Origin: Acidobacteriota bacterium
GTDB lineage: Bacteria; Acidobacteriota; Terriglobia; Bryobacterales; Bryobacteraceae
Assembly: GCA_003223115.1 (NCBI GenBank)
Contig: QHXW01000207.1
Location: 1 to 42,859 of the forward strand
Direction of reading: 5' to 3'
DNA: 42,859 nt
Shown: positions 1 through 41,370 of the stretch, one piece after another
Numbering within the stretch: position 1 is the stretch's first letter
How the letters are laid out: every line of letters begins with the position of its first letter
Notes under the pieces: generated by a model
Databases searched by the model: none
Seen by the model: the letters and a program-made list of their open reading frames with translations, nothing else
Told to the model about the DNA's origin: nothing
Made by a program: the position numbers and the translations under genes

Positions 1-406
1 CTACCTCGATGACATGGATTCGAAAATGGAGTGCATGCGCGCGCTGGTGGCGCAGGATCGTCACGTGGAAGGTCACTTCACCGGCTATAATGTGTCGCTC
101 GAGCGCATGGTGCTGAAAAAATTGAAGTACATGACGCCGGACGTGGTGCGGGCACCCGCGCAAACGAATGGGTCCGCGCTGTCCGAGTTTGAATCCGAGT
201 CCAAAGCAGCAGCCGCGCTCCAGGATGAGCCGTCAGAAAAAACGGAACCCGAGCAGCCGGACCCCTGCCCGCAAGATAGTGCGCCTTCCCTGTTTGACGT
301 TCCCAAAGAAACCAAATTTCGCGAAACCGTTCCACCGGAACCTAAGCTGGGCCCCCAACAAGCGGCGCATCCGTTGTTTCAAACGCCGTCCGCTCAGGAT
401 TCCTAA
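1..406 (+). CDS. C-terminal end of an unidentified protein (cut by window start)
   Basis: The frame is open from base 2 of the window, so the visible 130-residue ORF from the ATG at 14 is probably only the tail of a longer gene. The first ~45 residues are helical and charged. The remainder is low-complexity, rich in Pro, Glu, Ser and Gln, and ends in TPSAQDS, which looks like a disordered C-terminal tail. I do not recognise a domain. Its TAA (404-406) directly abuts the ATG of the BlaI-type gene at 407, so the two are probably cotranscribed. The BlaR-type sensor protease that often accompanies BlaI cannot be recognised in the visible part. Confidence 0.5.
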   Translation, partial: YLDDMDSKMECMRALVAQDRHVEGHFTGYNVSLERMVLKKLKYMTPDVVRAPAQTNGSALSEFESESKAAAALQDEPSEKTEPEQPDPCPQDSAPSLFDVPKETKFRETVPPEPKLGPQQAAHPLFQTPSAQDS

Positions 407-808
407 ATGGCTCGGGCACCTGCGGCGCGCGAGCTTCCACCACCGCTCGAGCTGATGTGTCTCAAGGCGCTATGGACGCTCGGCGAAGGCAATGTGAACG
501 ATATCCGGAACGTCACCAACCGCAACAAGCCGCTGGCTTACACTACGGTAATGACGCTGCTCGATCGGCTGGCGCGCAAGGGCGTGGCCTCAAGGCGTAA
601 GGTGGGCCGGGCCTTCGTTTACACTCCGCGAATCTCAGAAGATTCCATCCGCAAACTGGCGCTCCAGCAGTTCGTCACAAGCTACTTTGACGGCTCGGCG
701 GAGCAGTTGATCGATTTTCTGCGCCAGGCGCCATCCCCGAATTCTCCCGCGAACGGCCGCGAAACGCAGTCGCGTTTGGACAGCGGTCTCGACACCGCGC
801 TGCTGTGA
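407..808 (+). CDS. BlaI/MecI/CopY-family transcriptional repressor
   Basis: A 133-residue protein with the BlaI/MecI winged-helix fold across residues ~8-80. The helix region LELMCLKALWTLGEG is followed by a recognition helix containing LAYTTVMTLLDRLARKG, then the beta-wing (GRAFVYTP) and a C-terminal dimerisation helix region. Members repress their own and neighbouring genes and are released by proteolysis, usually by a BlaR1-type membrane protease. No such protease is seen downstream; its last codons overlap the next gene (GTGA, 805-808). The position between an unknown gene and a lipid A-core sugar cluster suggests it could control envelope functions, but that is inference. Confidence 0.85.
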   Translation: MARAPAARELPPPLELMCLKALWTLGEGNVNDIRNVTNRNKPLAYTTVMTLLDRLARKGVASRRKVGRAFVYTPRISEDSIRKLALQQFVTSYFDGSAEQLIDFLRQAPSPNSPANGRETQSRLDSGLDTALL

Positions 809-3924: not shown

Positions 3925-4449
3925 CTACTTGGTCTTCGACGCTGCCAGCATCCGGTCCAGTTCTGTAAACAGATCCCGCTCTTCGAAAATGCCGCGCGTC
4001 ATCACGTTGTAACCGAAGTCGTTCCGGATCATTCCCTGCGCGTCGATCAGAAAGACGTGTGGAATTTGAAAATTGGGGTTCGATGGACTCGCCTGCAGAT
4101 AGGAAGAGGCCACTTGGCCGCAATCGAACAGAATGGGCACGGAGAGCTTATTCTCCGTCATATACCTCTTCACGTTGTCCGCGTTGTCCGGTGGATTGAC
4201 TACGGAAAGAACGGTCACACGGCCGGCGTACTTCTTCGCCGCTTCATCCAAAATTTGCGAAAAGCGTTGGCAATGCGGGCACGTGGTTTGCATGAACTCC
4301 ACCACCAGAACTTTGCCGCGGAAATCCTGAGGATCGTACTGCTTTAAGTTCATATCTGGAAGCGAGAACCCGGGAGCGCGGCGTCCGGAATGCTCTCCCG
4401 AAGCGAAAAGGGCAGCGGCACACGCCAGCATGCAGAGAAAAATGCGCAT
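3925..4449 (-). CDS. Secreted thioredoxin-like (TlpA/AhpC-TSA type) redox protein
   Basis: A 174-residue protein with a signal peptide (MRIFLCMLACAAALFASG) followed by a thioredoxin/redoxin fold. The domain has GRRAPGFSLPDMN, the active site FMQTTCPHCQRF (C57, C60 from the ATG at 4449), VPILFDCGQVASSY with an additional cysteine, and the cis-Pro strand IPHVFLID. The family reduces or oxidises disulfides outside the cytoplasm, for example in cytochrome c maturation. The start at 4449 is chosen because it places the signal peptide at the N-terminus; an in-frame start lies 13 codons upstream. It is convergent with the methyltransferase gene and has no obvious operon partner. Confidence 0.8.
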   Translation of the reverse strand: MRIFLCMLACAAALFASGEHSGRRAPGFSLPDMNLKQYDPQDFRGKVLVVEFMQTTCPHCQRFSQILDEAAKKYAGRVTVLSVVNPPDNADNVKRYMTENKLSVPILFDCGQVASSYLQASPSNPNFQIPHVFLIDAQGMIRNDFGYNVMTRGIFEERDLFTELDRMLAASKTK

Positions 4450-4511
4450 GCCCTTCAACTTAACACGTCCGGCAGCCGGCAATCGCACACGGGGAGTAAG
4501 ACAATAAATCC

Positions 4512-4805: not shown

Positions 4806-5169
4806 TCACTGTTGCCGTAATGCAAGCAACGGATCGACCAGCGCCGCCCGTCGTGAAGGAATCCACACAGCGAGCAACGCCACCACTACCAACAGTTTGA
4901 TTGCCGCGCCCATCGCCGTGGGATCTTTTTCCGGGACCTGGAAAAGTAGTGCCGCGAGCGCCCTCGTTGCCCAGAACGAGCTGATGAGGCCTAATACCAT
5001 CCCTGCCAATGTCCAACGCACGGCATGCACCAGCACCAGCCTGGTGATCTGACCAGGTGTTGCGCCCAACGCCATGCGGACTCCGATCTCTTGTGTCCTC
5101 TGGGCCACCAGAAAGGAGATCAAACCATAGAGCCCAATTGCTGCGAGTATGACGCCCATCCCGGCGAAT
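4806..5169 (-). pseudogene. ADOP (MacB/FtsX-like) permease, C-terminal fragment
   Basis: This fragment encodes the last ~120 residues of an ADOP-family permease: FAGMGVILAAIGLYGLISFL, then VAQRTQEIGVRMALGATPGQ, two further membrane segments and the terminal SRRAALVDPLLALRQQ. The codons for GFAG immediately before MGV are in frame, but coding homology stops at ~5169. The missing preceding part lies just beyond this point on the opposite strand. About 2 nt appear to have been lost at the junction. It belongs with the fragments at 5170-5925 and 5926-7232 as one broken gene. Confidence 0.85.
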
Positions 5170-5925
5170 CCTGCTGGAAAGTCTATGGAAGGTCCAGAAC
5201 GCTCCGCTCGGTATGCAGCCCGAAAGCGTGCTCACAGCTTCTTTCGTTCTCGGTAAAGAACGCTACTCGAATGACAGCCACCAACTGACATTTTTCGAAG
5301 AACTGGAAAACAGGCTGAAGCGGCTACCTGGCGTAACCGCAGCTGCCATCACGGATTCGATTCCTCCAGCGGGCATCACACGATCGCGGCCTCTTACCGC
5401 GCTCAAGATTCCGGGCCGGCCCAGACTTCAAGGGGGCATGGGCGGTACCGTGATCTGGCGATAGGTGACGCCAGGATATTTCGTGGCCCTTAGTATTCCG
5501 ATCCTGCGCGGGAGAGCATTTGAGGAACAGGACCGCAACCCAGGCGAGGAGGTCGCGATCCTGAGCCAATCGCTCGCAGCGCGCTTATTTCCCAATGAGA
5601 GTCCGCTTGGGAAACGCGTCGATGGAACGGTGGTCGGCATTGCAGCTGATGTGAACAATAATGGGTTGTCCGTCAAGGCAGATGCCGAGTATTACTTCGT
5701 CCGCAAACACTCGACCGAAGGACGATTCCAGAACCAGATGCCACCATACGGTTGGCGCAAGGCGAGCGTGGTCGTGCGCAGTTCCATGAATTCGCAGGCC
5801 GTGGCGAACCTGCTGCGCGCGCAAATTGCGGCACTCGATCCGTTGCTCCCATAACGATGGAAACCATGAATCAGAAGGTAAGCAAGCTCGCCCAGCGGCC
5901 AAGGTTCAACGCGGTGCTCCTCGGG
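5170..5925 (+). pseudogene. ADOP permease, inverted middle segment with internal amber stop
   Basis: On the plus strand this stretch reads LLESLWKVQNAPLGMQPESV through LPGVTAAAITDSIPPAG, VTPGYFVALSIPILRGRAF, LFPNESPLGKRVDGTVVGIA and ETMNQKVSKLAQRPRFNAVL-LG. This is the second periplasmic core of an ADOP permease. A TAG at 5462-5464 interrupts the frame exactly before VTPGYF, where a residue such as Gln is expected (CAG to TAG is one change). The flanking minus-strand pieces end and resume precisely at the boundaries, so this is the missing middle third of the same gene, flipped in place. Confidence 0.85.
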
Positions 5926-7232
5926 AGACCGGCACCCGTCAGAAGGACCAGGCAGACCGCAATCTGTCCGCTAACGAGAACCTGACGGAAGAGATTGCGA
6001 GACCTCCCGACCGTGCGCGATCCAGTAAGGAGCCCGATTTGCGACGTCTGAAAGCAGGTGCGAGTCCGAATGCCATTCCTGAAGCCAGCGAAACCGCAAG
6101 CACAAGGAGCAGGACACGCAGGTCAAGGGTGGCTTGTTGCAGCCGTAGAATTCCCTCGGGTGCGATGGAGAGGAACAGCCGCAGAAGCACCCAGGCCAGG
6201 GCGCATCCGAGCACTCCCCCCGTGGCTCCCAAGACGAGGCTTTCTGTGAGGCTCTGGCGAACCAGGCGCCAGCGCGAAGCGCCTAAAGCTGCGCGGACGG
6301 CAAGGTCGCGGTTGCGGTGGGCGGCTCTCGCCAGTAGCAAGCCGGCCACGTTCGCGCACGCAATCAGCAGAACCGCCATGACAGAGCCAAGCAAAATCCA
6401 GGAAGCCAGCCGCGCTTCCCGAATCTGACGCTCGCGGAGAAATTGCAGCCGTAGCGGGAGCGCCTGCTTAAGCCCTGGAGGCATGGACTCGAGGAACTCC
6501 CGGTACACAGGCTCGAGCGCTGCTCTGGCCTGCTGAATCGTCGTTCCGGGTCGCAGTCGAGCAAGCGGCCTCACCAGGCGTTGGCTCGCGGCTCCTTGAG
6601 GAAGTGCCGCCGGCACTAACAGATCGGCGTAGCCCAACGTAGGCAATTCGAAATCGGCTGGAAGTACGCCGATGATGCTTGCGTGCGAACCGTCCAGATC
6701 GATGGTTTTGCCGAGTACGGTTGGCTCGCCGCCGAAACAGCTTTGCCAGAATCCGTAGGACAACAGAACGACGCGTCCGGCGCCTGGCCGGTCCTCTTCA
6801 GGTGTGAAATTGCGCCCCGCCACGGGCTGGATACCCAATGTGGGAAGAAACGTGGATTCCACCTGAGCGCAACTGAGGCGCACGGGAAAATTCGGAACGG
6901 TGAGATCGCACTCGACGATACCGGTCCAGGAAGTGAGTGCCTCAAACGCCTTTTGCGCCCGTTGCCACTCGTGATAGGTTCCCGCGAACAGGAATTCCTG
7001 TGAATCGATCGGAGGCTGCGACCATGCCGAGCGATACCAGCCGCTCATCATGGGCGTAGGGAAGTCCACGAAACAGGATGCGGTCCACAACGCTGAAAAC
7101 TGCGGTGGTTGCGCCAACGCCGAGCGCGAGCGCAAAGACCGCGGCTAACGTGAAGGACCAATTGCGCGGAACACCCCGGAAAGCGTGGCGCAGATCCTGG
7201 CGTATTGTGTCCAGATTAGAGGTCAAGTTCAT
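5926..7232 (-). pseudogene. ADOP permease, N-terminal portion (frameshifted)
   Basis: The protein starts MNLTSNLDTIRQDLRHAFRG with the first membrane helix SFTLAAVFALALGVGATTAV, typical of ADOP/MacB permeases. Near 7016 an extra base moves the frame: GMVA continues in the next frame as PPIDSQEFLFAGTYHEW. The periplasmic core and three membrane segments (for example MAVLLIACANVAGLLLARAA) follow. A second shift near 5987 moves the frame so that RQVLVSGQIAVCLVLLTGAG is read before homology ends at the inversion boundary. With the other two pieces the total span (4806-7232) equals about 808 codons, the length expected for a full permease. ADOP proteins are abundant and mostly uncharacterised. Confidence 0.85.
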
Positions 7233-7390: not shown

Positions 7391-9127
7391 ATGATTTGCG
7401 TGCGTATTGCATGTTTGCTGCTCCTAGTATCGCCCGCTGTCGCAGCCGAGCATTATGAAGTCACCACGGAGCGCGGCGCCACCATGAAGACTCGTGACGG
7501 CCTCACGCTGCGTGCGGACATCTATCGTCCGAAGACTAAAGGCCAGTTCCCGGTACTGTTGCAGCGCACGCCCTACAACAAGGCCGGCGCATCCGGTTTC
7601 GGCATGAGCGCGGCGGCCGAGGGCTATGTGGTGATCGTTCAGGACGTACGCGGCCGCTTCACTTCCGACGGCGATTGGTATCCGTTCAAATACGAAAGTG
7701 AGGCTGGCTACGATACCGTCGAATGGGCCGCGGCGCTGCCGTACTCGAACGGGAAAGTCGGCATGTTCGGCGGGTCCTATGTGGGCGCCACGCAGATGCT
7801 GGCTGCAATCTCGAGCCCTCCGCATCTGGCGGGTGTCTTCGCGGTGGTGACCGCTTCGAACTATCACGACGGCTGGACGTATCAGGGTGGCGCGTTCGAG
7901 CAGTGGTTCAATGAATCCTGGACCTCCGGCCTGGCGCAGGACACGCTCGACCGCAGCATACGGCAATCCACAAACGCGCTGAAGGGGATCTGGAAACTGC
8001 CGCTCACCGAGTATCCGCTGCTCGACCTTCCCTCCGCGGCAAGCCTGGCCCCATACTTCGCCGAGTGGCTGCGCCATCCCGATTACGACGACTATTGGAA
8101 GCGATTGTCCATTGAAGATCACTACGCGAAAATCCAGGTGCCACTCTATGGCGTGGGCGGCTGGTATGACATTTTTCAGGGCGGGACCGTGCGCAACTAC
8201 GTCGGCTTGAAAGCGCACGCGGCGACCGAGGCCGCCCGACGCGGGCAGCGGCTGATGATTGGCCCGTGGTATCACGGCCCGTTTGACGGCAAGGCGGGCG
8301 ATCTCGACTTCGGCTCCTCCGCCAAGGGCGACAGCGATGCTGACATGCTGCGCTGGTACGACCACCTGCTGAAGGGCATTCAGAATGGCGTGGAACACGA
8401 GAGGCCCGTGCGCATTTTCGTCATGGGTAAAAATGTGTGGCGCGATGAAGACGATTGGCCCTTGGCGCGCGCCCGTCAGACCCGTTATTACCTGCACTCG
8501 CGAGGCGGCGCGAACACACGAACCGGTGACGGCACACTGAGCATTACCGCGCCTCAGAGCGAACACGCCGACGCATTCACGTATGATCCGGCCAGTCCCG
8601 TGCCCACCCGGGGCGGCAACTTGTGCTGCGATAACGACCATCTGCCGTCGGGCGCTTTCGATCAGCGATCCAATGAAGAGCGTCCGGACGTGCTGGTCTA
8701 CACCACGCCGGCATTCTCGGGCGATTTCGAAGTCACCGGGCCGATTGCGGTGGAGTTGTATGCCGGATCGTCGGCAGTGGACACCGATTTCACCGCGAAG
8801 CTGGTGGATGTCTGGCCCAACGGCTTTGCGCAGAACCTTACCGAAGGCATTCTTCGCGCACGCTATCGCAACTCGCCGTCACGGCCTGAGCCCATGAAGC
8901 CTGGTGAGATTTACAAATTGCACATCGATGTGTGGAACACCAGCAACGTTTTTTTGGCCGGCCACCAACTGCGCCTGGAAATCTCGAGCAGCAATTTTCC
9001 ACGGTTCGACCGCAATCTCAATACCGGCGAAAACGCAGGCGTATCACGCAGCATGGTGAAAGCTCAAAACACCATCTACCACGACGCGCAGCACCTCTCG
9101 GCGCTGATCCTGCCGGTAATTCCGTAA
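7391..9127 (+). CDS. Secreted CocE/NonD-family hydrolase (X-Pro dipeptidyl-peptidase S15 type)
   Basis: A 578-residue protein with a signal peptide (MICVRIACLLLLVSPAVAA) and a CocE/S15 alpha/beta-hydrolase domain. Catalytic elements are visible: the nucleophile elbow MFGGSYVGATQM (S129), the acid in VGGWYDIFQGG (D260) and the histidine in IGPWYHGPFDG (H295). The C-terminal third is the jelly-roll domain of the family (YTTPAFSGDFEVTGPIAVEL, HQLRLEISSSNFPRFDRN). Members cleave esters, amides or N-terminal X-Pro dipeptides; the substrate here cannot be read from sequence. It is transcribed divergently from the broken permease and convergently with the SDR gene, 19 nt away. Confidence 0.9.
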   Translation: MICVRIACLLLLVSPAVAAEHYEVTTERGATMKTRDGLTLRADIYRPKTKGQFPVLLQRTPYNKAGASGFGMSAAAEGYVVIVQDVRGRFTSDGDWYPFKYESEAGYDTVEWAAALPYSNGKVGMFGGSYVGATQMLAAISSPPHLAGVFAVVTASNYHDGWTYQGGAFEQWFNESWTSGLAQDTLDRSIRQSTNALKGIWKLPLTEYPLLDLPSAASLAPYFAEWLRHPDYDDYWKRLSIEDHYAKIQVPLYGVGGWYDIFQGGTVRNYVGLKAHAATEAARRGQRLMIGPWYHGPFDGKAGDLDFGSSAKGDSDADMLRWYDHLLKGIQNGVEHERPVRIFVMGKNVWRDEDDWPLARARQTRYYLHSRGGANTRTGDGTLSITAPQSEHADAFTYDPASPVPTRGGNLCCDNDHLPSGAFDQRSNEERPDVLVYTTPAFSGDFEVTGPIAVELYAGSSAVDTDFTAKLVDVWPNGFAQNLTEGILRARYRNSPSRPEPMKPGEIYKLHIDVWNTSNVFLAGHQLRLEISSSNFPRFDRNLNTGENAGVSRSMVKAQNTIYHDAQHLSALILPVIP

Positions 9128-14919: not shown

Positions 14920-17900
14920 ATGTCTCTGGCACACTTCGATCCCCTGGTCGCGGAGTGGTTCACGCGGCGTTTTTCCGCGCCCACCGAGCCCCAAATATTG
15001 GGCTGGCCGGAGATCCGCGCCGGCCATGATGTCCTGATTTCCGCTCCTACCGGCTCCGGCAAAACGCTCTCGGCCTTTCTGATTTGTCTCGACGGCCTGG
15101 TGCGTGCGGCTCGCGTGGGAGCACTGCCTGAAGAAACCGCGGCCGTTTACGTTTCTCCGCTCAAAGCCCTGAGCAACGATATCCGCAAGAATCTCGAAGT
15201 TCCGCTGGGTGAAATCGCCGCACTGGCGGCCGAGAAGGGCATCCTGCTTCCTCCTATCCGCACCGCCGTGCGTACTGGAGATACGCCGGCCTGGGAGCGC
15301 CAGCAGATGGGTAAACATCCGCCGCACATCCTGGTGACGACGCCTGAGTCGTTGTTCATCCTGCTCACCGCGGAAGGCTCGCGGCGCATGCTGCGCACTA
15401 CACGGACTGTCATCGTGGATGAGATTCATGCCATGGCCGACGATAAGCGCGGCTCGCATCTGGCGCTCTCACTGGCCCGCCTGGATGCGCTGGTGGAAGG
15501 TCCGAAACCCCAGCGCATCGGCCTTTCCGCCACCGTGCGGCCCATCGAGGAAGTCGCGCGGTTCCTGAGTGACGACGCGAAAATTGTCGATATCGGGCAT
15601 CGCCGCGCAATGGACATCGCAGTGGAGGTCCCGAAAGATGAGCTGGGCGCAGTGGCTACAAACGAAATGTGGGGCGAGATTTACGATCGCGTCGCTGACC
15701 TCATTCGTGCCAACCGCACCACCCTGGTATTTGTGAATACGCGGCGGCTGGCCGAACGCGTGTCGCATGCTCTGTCTGAGCGGCTGGGCGAAGGCGCCGT
15801 TTTGCCGCATCACGGAAGTTTGTCCCGCGCATTACGGTTCGAAGCGGAAGCGCGGCTGAAGAGCGGCGCGCTGCGGGCGGTGGTGGCCACGGCCTCGCTC
15901 GAACTCGGCATCGACATCGGTACGGTCGACTTGGTATGCCAGATCGGCTCGCCGCGGTCCATCGCAGTAGCTTTGCAGCGCATCGGCCGCTCAGGCCACT
16001 GGGTGGGAGCTAAACCCATGGGGCGGTTCTTCGTCACCACGCGGGACGAGCTCGTGGAATGTGCCGCGCTGGCGCGCGGCATTCGTGCAGGCGAGCTGGA
16101 TCGCACCGAGATTCCGCGCAATGCTCTGGATATTCTGGCGCAGCAGATCGTGGCCGCCACAGCCACACAGGACTGGCGCGAGGACGACCTCTATGCGCTG
16201 ATGCGTAGCACGTATTCCTACCGGGATCTTGCGCGCTCCGACTTCGATGCCGTGGTTAAAATGCTTTCCGACGGCATCACCACCCAGCGCGGCCGCAGCG
16301 GAACTTATCTGCACCGCGACGAAATCAACGGGAGAGTGCGCGCGCGCCGCGGTGCGCGATTAGCGGCCATCACCTCGGGCGGGGCAATTCCGGAAAACGC
16401 TAACTACCTGGTGGTGGCCGAACCGGAGGGAGCCGTCGTCGGCACTCTCGACGAAGACTTCGCGGTCGAAAGTCTGGCCGGCGATATCTTTCTGCTCGGC
16501 ACCACGTCGTGGCGTATCCGGCGCATCGAATCAGGGCGAGTGCGCGTGGAGGATGCGCACGGCGCCGCGCCTTCCATTCCATTCTGGAACGGTGAAGCGC
16601 CCGGGCGCACCACGGAACTCTCGCAGGAAGTTTCAAGCCTGAGAGAAGCGATCGCCGCGCGCGGATGCCCGGAAGCCATCGAATTTCTCGAGCGCGAGTG
16701 CTCGCTCGATCAACGCGGCGCTGAACAAGCGTACGAGTACGTCACCGTCGGCGGTTCTCTGCTGGGCGCCATGCCCACTCACTCGACCATCGTCGCTGAG
16801 CGCTTCTTCGATGAGGGCGGCGGCATGCAACTGGTGCTCCATGCGCCTTTCGGTGCGCGCATCAATCGCGCCTGGGGTCTGGCTCTGCGCAAGCGCTTCT
16901 GCCGTTCGTTCAACTTCGAGCTGCAGGCGGCGGCCACCGACAACGGCATTGTCATTTCACTCGCCGAGCAGCATTCGTTCCCGCTCGAAGTGGTCTTCGG
17001 CTTCTTGAACTCAGCCACGGTGGAAGACGTCCTCAGACAGGCCCTGCTTGCTGCGCCGATGTTCACTGCGCGCTGGCGATGGAACGCCACCCGCTCGCTC
17101 GCGATACTGCGGTTCCGGGGCGGCGCCAAGATTCCGGCTCCCATCCAGCGCATGCGCTCGGACGATCTGCTGGCTTCGGTGTTCCCCGATCAAGCAGCTT
17201 GCGGCGAAAATCTCACGGGCGAAATCCGCATTCCGGATCATCCGCTGGTGAACGAGACCATCTCCAATTGCCTGCATGAGGCTATGGATTTGGACGGACT
17301 GAAGCAACTACTCGCCGGAATTTCGAGCGGGACCATTCGTACCGTCGCCATTGAAACCGCCGAAGCATCGCCGTTTTCACACGAAATTCTCAACGCCAAT
17401 CCATACGCTTATCTGGACGATGCGCCGCTCGAGGAGCGCCGTGCACGCGCCGTTCAATTACGTCGCACTTTGCCGGACCTGGCGGACGGGATGGGGGCGC
17501 TCGACGTTGCGGCCATCGAGCAGGTGCGCAGCGAATCCTGGCCCGTAGTGCGCGACGCGGATGAACTGCACGATGCGCTGCTGACGCTGATCGCTCTGCC
17601 TCCGGTCCTGGAATGGCAGCGCTGGTTCGAAGAACTCGATGCGGCCGGACGCGTCAGGATCATTCAATTAGGCGAGGCGGTCTTCTGGACGGCGGCGGAG
17701 CGCGCAAGTTTGGCGCATTTGGCTTACTTCGGCGCCGGTGACGAACGGCAGGCGGCGGTAACCGAAATTCTGCGCGGCTGGCTGGAATCGACTGGTCCCG
17801 CGACCCTCACCGAACTGGCCGAGCGCCTGATGCTCCGGCGCGAGTTTGTCGATATCGGGCTCGCGAAGCTCGAATCCGAGGGCCAGATTCTGCGCGGCCG

Positions 17901-40239: not shown

Positions 40240-41370
40240 ACATGATCTCCGGCGCCATCGTTTTGTTTCGCAGCATGGTGCGCCTCGAAACCATCGATCC
40301 CGGCCTGGACTCCTCTAATCTGCTCACCTTCCGCGTTCCCCTTACAGCAGGGCGTTATCGGGAGGCTCGTGCACGCTCGCAGTTCCTCGAGCGGGCTCTC
40401 GATCAAATCGCTCACTTTCCCGGAGTCCTCTCCGCGAGCGGTAAGTTTTCTCCCCTTCACCGGCCCCGGCGACGGCACTTCGGTGAATATCGAAGGACGG
40501 CTGCCGTCCAAGCCAGGCGCGGAGCTGGAGGCGATCATCCAAACCGTGATGCCCGGATATTTCCACACGCTCGGCATTCCGTTCAAGAGCGGGCGCGACT
40601 TCACCGATTCCGACAATCGCCCCGACTCACCCTACCGTTTCATCGTGAATGAGGCATTCGTGCGGCAATTCCTGCGCGGCGAACAGCCTCTCGGCAAACG
40701 GATCAACGCGATCAAGGATCTTCAGAATCCGTATGGCGAAATCATCGGCGTCGTGGCCGACGTGCGCGAATCCTCGATTGATCACAAACCGGAGCCGACC
40801 GTCTATTACCCCCACGCCCACCTGACTTATCCACGCATGGTATTTCTCGTTCGCGCGGACCGCAATCCGCTCGGCCTCGCCGAGCCGACACGGCGCGCAA
40901 TGCGGCAGCTCGATCCGGAACAGCGCATCGCCGCAGTACAAACGCTCGAAGATGTGCTGGGCGAAAACATCTCCCGCCTGCGGTTCAGCTCGTGGCTGCT
41001 TGCGGGATTTGCCACAGTGGCCCTAGTGCTGACCGCGGTCGGCATTTACGGATTGCTGGCGTATTCAGTCTCGGCACGAACGCGCGAATTCGGCGTCCGC
41101 TCGGCACTGGGGGCCGGGCCGAAGCGCATTGTTGCCCTGGTGCTCACGAGCGGCATTCGCCCGGTTCTGGGTGGATTAGCTGTCGGATGCGCGGGAGCAC
41201 TCTCCTTGTCGGGCCTGCTGAAGAGCCTCTTATTCGGTGTCGGCCCGCGTGAACCGCTGACTTTCGCGGGCGTGCCGTTATTGCTCGCTGCCGTCGCGCT
41301 GCTGGCCGCCTATCTACCCGCGCGTAAAGCCGCCTTGCTCGACCCGATGGACGCCTTGCGAATCGAGTAG
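40240..41370 (+). pseudogene. ADOP-family permease, C-terminal half, 5' truncated and frameshifted
   Basis: Homology begins abruptly near 40242 with MISGAIVLFRSMVRLETIDP (the membrane helix before periplasmic core 2). It continues to HFPGVLSAS and then shifts frame near 40440 into VSFLPFTGPGDGTSVNIEGR, VMPGYFHTLGIPFKSGRDF, EQPLGKRINAIKDLQN, the GIYGLLAYSVSARTREFGVR helix region and the terminal PARKAALLDPMDALRIE. The N-terminal membrane segment and core 1 are missing. A 5' truncated permease inside a plasmid-like region suggests capture of a chromosomal fragment or recombination between repeated ADOP copies. Confidence 0.82.

Follow-up and report, generated by a model that had tools for sequence, protein, structure and literature searches.

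The window analysed here is a stretch of 42,859 nucleotides (contig QHXW01000207.1, C115 in our numbering) from an Acidobacteriota bacterium that probably came from soil, the draft genome of which (G000) comprises 9.14 Mb in 594 contigs. The minus strand at 4806-7232 carries a broken gene of the ADOP permease family, with a start codon at 7232 and a stop codon at 4806-4808, and the central ~756 bp of this gene (~5170-5925) are on the plus strand. The neighbouring genes, for a CocE/NonD hydrolase (7391-9127) and a thioredoxin-like protein (3925-4488), are apparently whole, and no structured RNA scored above the Rfam gathering scores between 4400 and 7600. A second ADOP remnant at 40246-41367 of the window consists of a C-terminal half only (model positions 498-869, in two adjoining matches).

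Read in gene direction, the N-terminal piece occupies 7017-7232 (minus strand) in a first frame and shares 55.6-60.2% identity with the N-termini of three intact relatives. Four additional nucleotides at 7013-7016 (minus), relative to the genes of genomes G002 and G014, change the frame, and the N-terminal half continues in a second frame at 6026-7012 (minus) with the first periplasmic core and FtsX domains (Pfam, on the ORF 5939-7135). A second frameshift lies within 5981-6030 (minus; tblastn, frame -2 to -1), or later still in the alignments of some relatives, and the piece preceding the first join (5926-6029, minus) ends in TGAG(L). The right breakpoint is at 5924-5926, a triplet that reads GGA on the plus strand and inside which the exact base is ambiguous, and the left breakpoint is at the triplet TCC (5169-5171). 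Between them the inverted block (5170-5925, plus strand, ~756 bp) contains the second periplasmic core domain (Pfam, MacB_PCD), an in-frame amber codon at 5462-5464 (plus) and a third frameshift at 5848-5851 (plus; tblastn, frame 3 to 2). The C-terminal piece at 4809-5168 (minus) contains the second FtsX domain (Pfam, 7.1e-15).

Pfam applied to the separate pieces found MacB_PCD and FtsX in the N-terminal half, a second MacB_PCD at 5465-5854 (plus) and a second FtsX in the C-terminal piece, and the two shortest pieces submitted had no match. The NCBIfam model of the ADOP family, TIGR03434, searched against the pieces other than 7017-7232, matched four of them at consecutive positions, 76-393 (minus), 437-516 (plus), 533-655 (plus) and 684-802 (minus), with 320.7, 49.4, 91.4 and 145.2 bits. 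No piece reached the curated cut-off of 622.3 bits, as a whole protein is not encoded; the intact G002 relative scored 839.3 bits. Like the MacB/FtsX-type duplicated permeases of this family, the window gene has two successive MacB_PCD-FtsX halves in about 800 codons, and their order is correct only with the block reversed. It differs from them in that it is not one open frame, owing to the inverted middle, the amber codon and the frameshifts.

Intact genes of relatives align with the locus in the manner expected of an inversion. By tblastn the G002 gene (819 aa, same genus) places residues 82-413 at 7012-6026 (minus), 447-673 at 5168-5851 (plus), 673-698 at 5848-5925 (plus) and 700-819 at 5168-4809 (minus). 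The genes of G003 (834 aa) and G014 (a 963-aa frame) gave the same pattern, and the pieces are collinear with them only if the block is reversed. An ADOP profile of 105 sequences (intact copies of the own genome and the G002 gene) detected the plus-strand block alone at model positions 503-723 with an E-value of 7.9e-46, so the signal is not due to chance. When 5170-5925 was reverse-complemented in silico, the minus-strand total of the profile rose from 591.2 to 797.2 bits and the plus-strand total fell from 158.4 to 0; the hits at 469-512, 503-723 and 748-868 merged into a single match at 469-868 with 373.5 bits. At the first join, TGAG|LLLESLWKVQ is exact and no residue is missing. At the second, RPRFNAVLLG|FAGMG, one nucleotide stands between the block end and the C-terminal piece in place of a codon in the relatives; this 2-nt shortfall may be a separate later lesion. 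The initial annotation had proposed three ordered pieces of one permease with the central one on the opposite strand, had written both joins in this way, and had suggested turning the block in silico as a check. These proposals are borne out by the tblastn, profile and TIGR03434 results, and its length of ~808 codons is close to the ~807 that we counted from the pieces and to the 803 of the family model.

The gene has lesions both inside and outside the block, namely the amber codon, the three frameshifts and the shortfall at the second join. The initial annotation had already listed the amber codon at its correct position and a frameshift near 7016, which corresponds to the four extra nucleotides. 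It had placed another at 5987; that frame change is real and its position is uncertain, since the three closest relatives put it at about 6029-5996 and others follow the first frame to 5981 or beyond. The frame change near 5850 was absent from that annotation. Given the inversion and these lesions at a locus where G002, G003 and G014 each have a single open frame, the window gene is an ADOP-family pseudogene and not a functional member of the family, and it is dead irrespective of the inversion.

The three searched pieces (6026-7012, 5465-5851 and 4809-5168) share their best non-self match, which among 61 genomes (the own genome and 60 relatives) is the same G002 gene with 57%, 53% and 72% identity, respectively. 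Copies in the own genome score lower. For the N-terminal piece these are on contigs C435 (49%) and C12 (44%). C435 is the best own-genome match both of the N-terminal half and of the block, where it reaches 53% over 86 of 129 residues and 81.9 bits compared with 104.7 bits for the G002 gene. The C435 copy (L057, 2535-4965) is also broken, into two frames of 629 and 221 aa, and no inversion was seen in it. The C-terminal piece is 72% identical to G002, compared with 59% to G003 and 58% to G014, and the block and the N-terminal piece vary less between the relatives; the only account that we offer for the high C-terminal value is stronger conservation of that domain. A comparison with five loci (three in relatives, two in the own genome) gave, besides ADOP-to-ADOP matches, a single weak match of 23%, and orthology therefore rests on sequence similarity.

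The own genome yielded at least 150 ADOP matches per search, and several matches may belong to one gene. In a partial profile and tblastn survey of 140 ADOP-bearing regions (1,258,178 bases of the 9.14 Mb), hand-picked from the matches listed in the family searches, three of which scored about 150 candidates each, and of the window, two more in-place inversions of ~232 and ~187 bp were found in broken ADOP copies. The first, on contig C350 (L147, 1546-1777; contig ~3545-3776), is a minus-strand block within a plus-strand gene. With the block turned, the gene-strand total was 884.4 bits (815.2 before) and that of the other strand 0 (64.5 before). The block is bordered by the two arms of an 11-nt inverted repeat (1535-1545 and 1778-1788, one mismatch). 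Of 4000 position pairs drawn at random with equal spacing and tolerance, 0.1% gave such a match; the 11-nt length used for this comparison had been set once the repeat was known. This gene also has several frame changes, and a stop inside the block. The second, on contig C494 (L215, also in the overlapping L157; ~15255-15441, contig ~37254-37440), is a plus-strand block within a minus-strand gene, the flanks of which abut. Turning it raised the gene-strand total from 458.6 to 505.0 bits, merged two hits and reduced the other strand from 22.4 to 0. No inverted repeat of 8-11 nt was found at its edges, and this gene also has no match for model positions 256-556. Evidence for the C494 block is the weakest of the three (profile i-E-value 1.8e-5, best tblastn match 47 bits). 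The profile test for a block sandwiched between opposite-strand pieces recovered the window and C494; C350 is a sandwich by tblastn and was only one-sided in the profile test, since the plus-strand alignment crosses the block. Opposite-strand neighbours in L096, L097, L166, L207, L186, L025 and L245 were set aside as adjacent genes on the basis of their coordinates, and L245 alone was relisted.

The surveyed regions of the own genome contained 139 model-spanning loci, of which 104 are in one piece and 35 in two to six, together with 66 partial loci inside regions and 79 at region ends, some of them double-counted through overlaps (C3, C85, C494). The three inversions are thus to be seen relative to about a hundred ADOP loci that are either broken or partial and interior. 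Loci with 0 to 5 breaks numbered 104, 14, 10, 6, 4 and 1, compared with Poisson expectations of 82.2, 43.2, 11.3, 2.0, 0.3 and 0.0 (dispersion index 2.19), where breaks are counted as profile pieces, a measure that can also take a large insertion for a break. The profile test, and not the tblastn test that revealed C350, was applied to 64 regions of relatives; it found no inversion sandwich, and one-sided hits were listed. Those regions (39 chosen mainly for short open frames or from the matches listed in other searches, among them one Ku locus, L248, included by mistake, and 25 other loci, some overlapping) contained 30 loci spanning the model, of which 10 were in two pieces, along with 12 partial ones in region interiors and 33 at ends. 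Because broken loci were few in the relatives and the test was less sensitive there, a difference from the own genome is not shown. One of three opposite-strand neighbours there (L219, 4743-7463, on G003:C37) was rejected as an inversion: it consists of head-to-head divergent ADOP C-terminal halves, both of which begin near model position 400 and the best protein segments of which are 46-60% identical to each other. While 35 of the 139 spanning loci of the own genome are in pieces, the best 76 matches in the two-contig relative G010 are all in open frames of at least 629 aa. Our impression is that the own genome has more broken ADOP loci than G010, with measures that differ between the two genomes.

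We consider that the locus is most probably a non-functional ADOP pseudogene in which ~756 bp were turned in place by a non-programmed event, and we assign this reading, made from sequence comparison, a probability of roughly 0.82. It is favoured by the collinearity of the pieces, their shared best relative, the profile gain on turning the block, the lesions inside and outside the block, the lack of an inverted repeat of 8-11 nt at the breakpoints and of a recombinase among the 18 ORFs scanned, the large size of the family, the Ku matches of the genome, and the two further inversions. The breakpoints have in common only the inverted triplet TCC/GGA at 5169-5171 and 5924-5926, and their positions are therefore uncertain by up to 3 nt. 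By our own estimate, 3 nt in common is about what chance would give. No inverted repeat of 8-11 nt with one mismatch was found within 5 nt of both breakpoints, and among the pairs listed in general repeat searches (25 of 31 in one search) none links the two. A 22-nt inverted repeat of 86% identity (4816-4837 and 5835-5856) was set aside, as neither arm is at a breakpoint and both read as encoding a similar DPLL stretch.

The main alternative is an assembly or library artefact, in which the assembler or chimeric reads reversed a block that is normally oriented in the organism itself. The draft state of the genome (594 contigs) and the presence of three inversions in one assembly, compared with none in the relatives' regions, which had fewer broken loci and a less sensitive test, would be in keeping with this. 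However, the sequence common to the breakpoints is at most 3 nt, and nothing longer is there for an assembler to confuse. All three inverted genes have further lesions, while 104 of the 139 spanning loci read as one piece, and the over-dispersion of breaks per locus fits true pseudogenes rather than random sequence error. Given the minimal repeats, the independent lesions both within the block and beyond it and the two comparable inversions elsewhere, illegitimate recombination is likelier than an assembly error, and we regard an artefact as improbable.

A programmed, phase-variable intragenic inverton that still flips would also appear as a clean block turned in place within a membrane-protein gene, and the edges of the C350 block with their 11-nt inverted repeat resemble one. 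Intragenic DNA inversions of this kind were reportedly described by Chanin et al. (Nature, 2024), and the window shares with them a reversed segment inside a coding gene. Invertons are flanked by inverted repeats of 10-40 nt, bound by an invertase and reversible (PMC11892184), whereas inverted homology at the window is 3 nt, no inverted repeats of ~10-40 nt are present at the block edges, and neither orientation gives an intact gene. Even with the block turned back, the amber codon and the frameshifts prevent an open gene. A Pfam scan of 18 window ORFs, which took in only a minority of those beyond 23.5 kb and a part of the short ones, found no recombinase. As TCC/GGA is all that the breakpoints share and none of these 18 ORFs encodes a recombinase, we consider a programmed switch unlikely, and for lack of repeats, together with the lesions, we rejected an invertase switch at the window; we give a still-flipping inverton very little credence. 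Insertion of a fragment of a different ADOP paralogue, for which the very many ADOP genes of the genome might supply a source, is practically negligible, as the block and both flanks have the same top G002 gene and the model coordinates abut at both block ends. These results agree with the initial annotation, which had read the locus as an in-place inversion of part of one gene with 2-3 nt of breakpoint homology, no long inverted repeats and no evident invertase switch. It had offered illegitimate recombination and assembly error as the alternatives and had named an origin of the plus-strand piece in another paralogue as what would overturn it; the identical best relatives of the three searched pieces contradict that origin.

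In the favoured case of a non-programmed inversion, the DNA might have been broken at two sites ~756 bp apart, or a single fork might have stalled and switched template twice over that distance; end joining or microhomology-directed synthesis could then have restored the intervening fragment in reverse. The inversion would be tolerated in a very large gene family, in a gene that was already, or was thereby, dead. The joins are compatible with either route. End joining is slightly preferred, since the genome has three Ku-domain matches (C217, C519 and a partial one on C86); the support is circumstantial and weak, because 15 of 40 relatives also have a Ku match (16 of the 41 genomes searched, own genome included). 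The possible but lesser candidate is template switching, a jump of the nascent strand onto the opposite strand followed by its return. As this competes with end joining inside the favoured explanation, its probability overlaps with that of the inversion itself. The short inverted sequence common to the joins would suit template switching, which has been discussed for human microinversions of 17-33 nt (PMC8755829). However, 756 bp is long relative to those, 3 nt of homology is little, and the small loss at the second join is equally compatible with end joining. The human-chimpanzee microinversions, which the same source attributes to template switching or microhomology-mediated break-induced replication, are likewise inverted in place (PMC8755829). 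Spontaneous inversions in Salmonella end in short inverted repeats (PMC3411829). They resemble the present case as non-programmed inversion junctions, and C350 with its 11 nt fits them; the 22 confirmed Salmonella junctions have more than 10 bp of homology, in contrast to 3 nt at the window (PMC3411829).

The best reading of the window inversion is an ordinary kind of gene death, a one-off accident in a decaying gene. It explains, for annotation, why fragments of one gene lie on opposite strands at this locus. The slightly unusual part of the observation is recurrence in the broken ADOP copies of one genome, a pattern that we find mildly interesting. The acidobacterium Candidatus Solibacter usitatus has a genome with many old, divergent paralogues (PMC3174227). 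A large gene family that is redundant, and in which many copies are dead, is a place where such inversions can be counted. We recognised no report of in-place partial-gene inversions in bacterial pseudogenes in the partly accessible literature covered, which is weak evidence of absence, as subscription papers and bioRxiv were mostly outside it. Repeat-free inversions of this kind are easily overlooked in bacteria because, according to PMC11892184, the inverton caller described there begins by finding inverted repeats. Should reads confirm all three inversions of this genome, they would give a first estimate of the frequency of inversion relative to frameshifts and stops. We tentatively suggest, as the less probable case, that this lineage has a recurrent process, perhaps Ku-dependent rejoining of paired breaks, that turns segments of ~0.2-0.8 kb in place at sites sharing little or no homology. 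If this is true, inversions that are usually purged by selection would be visible in the decaying permease copies, which would then document a kind of bacterial mutation that is poorly described.
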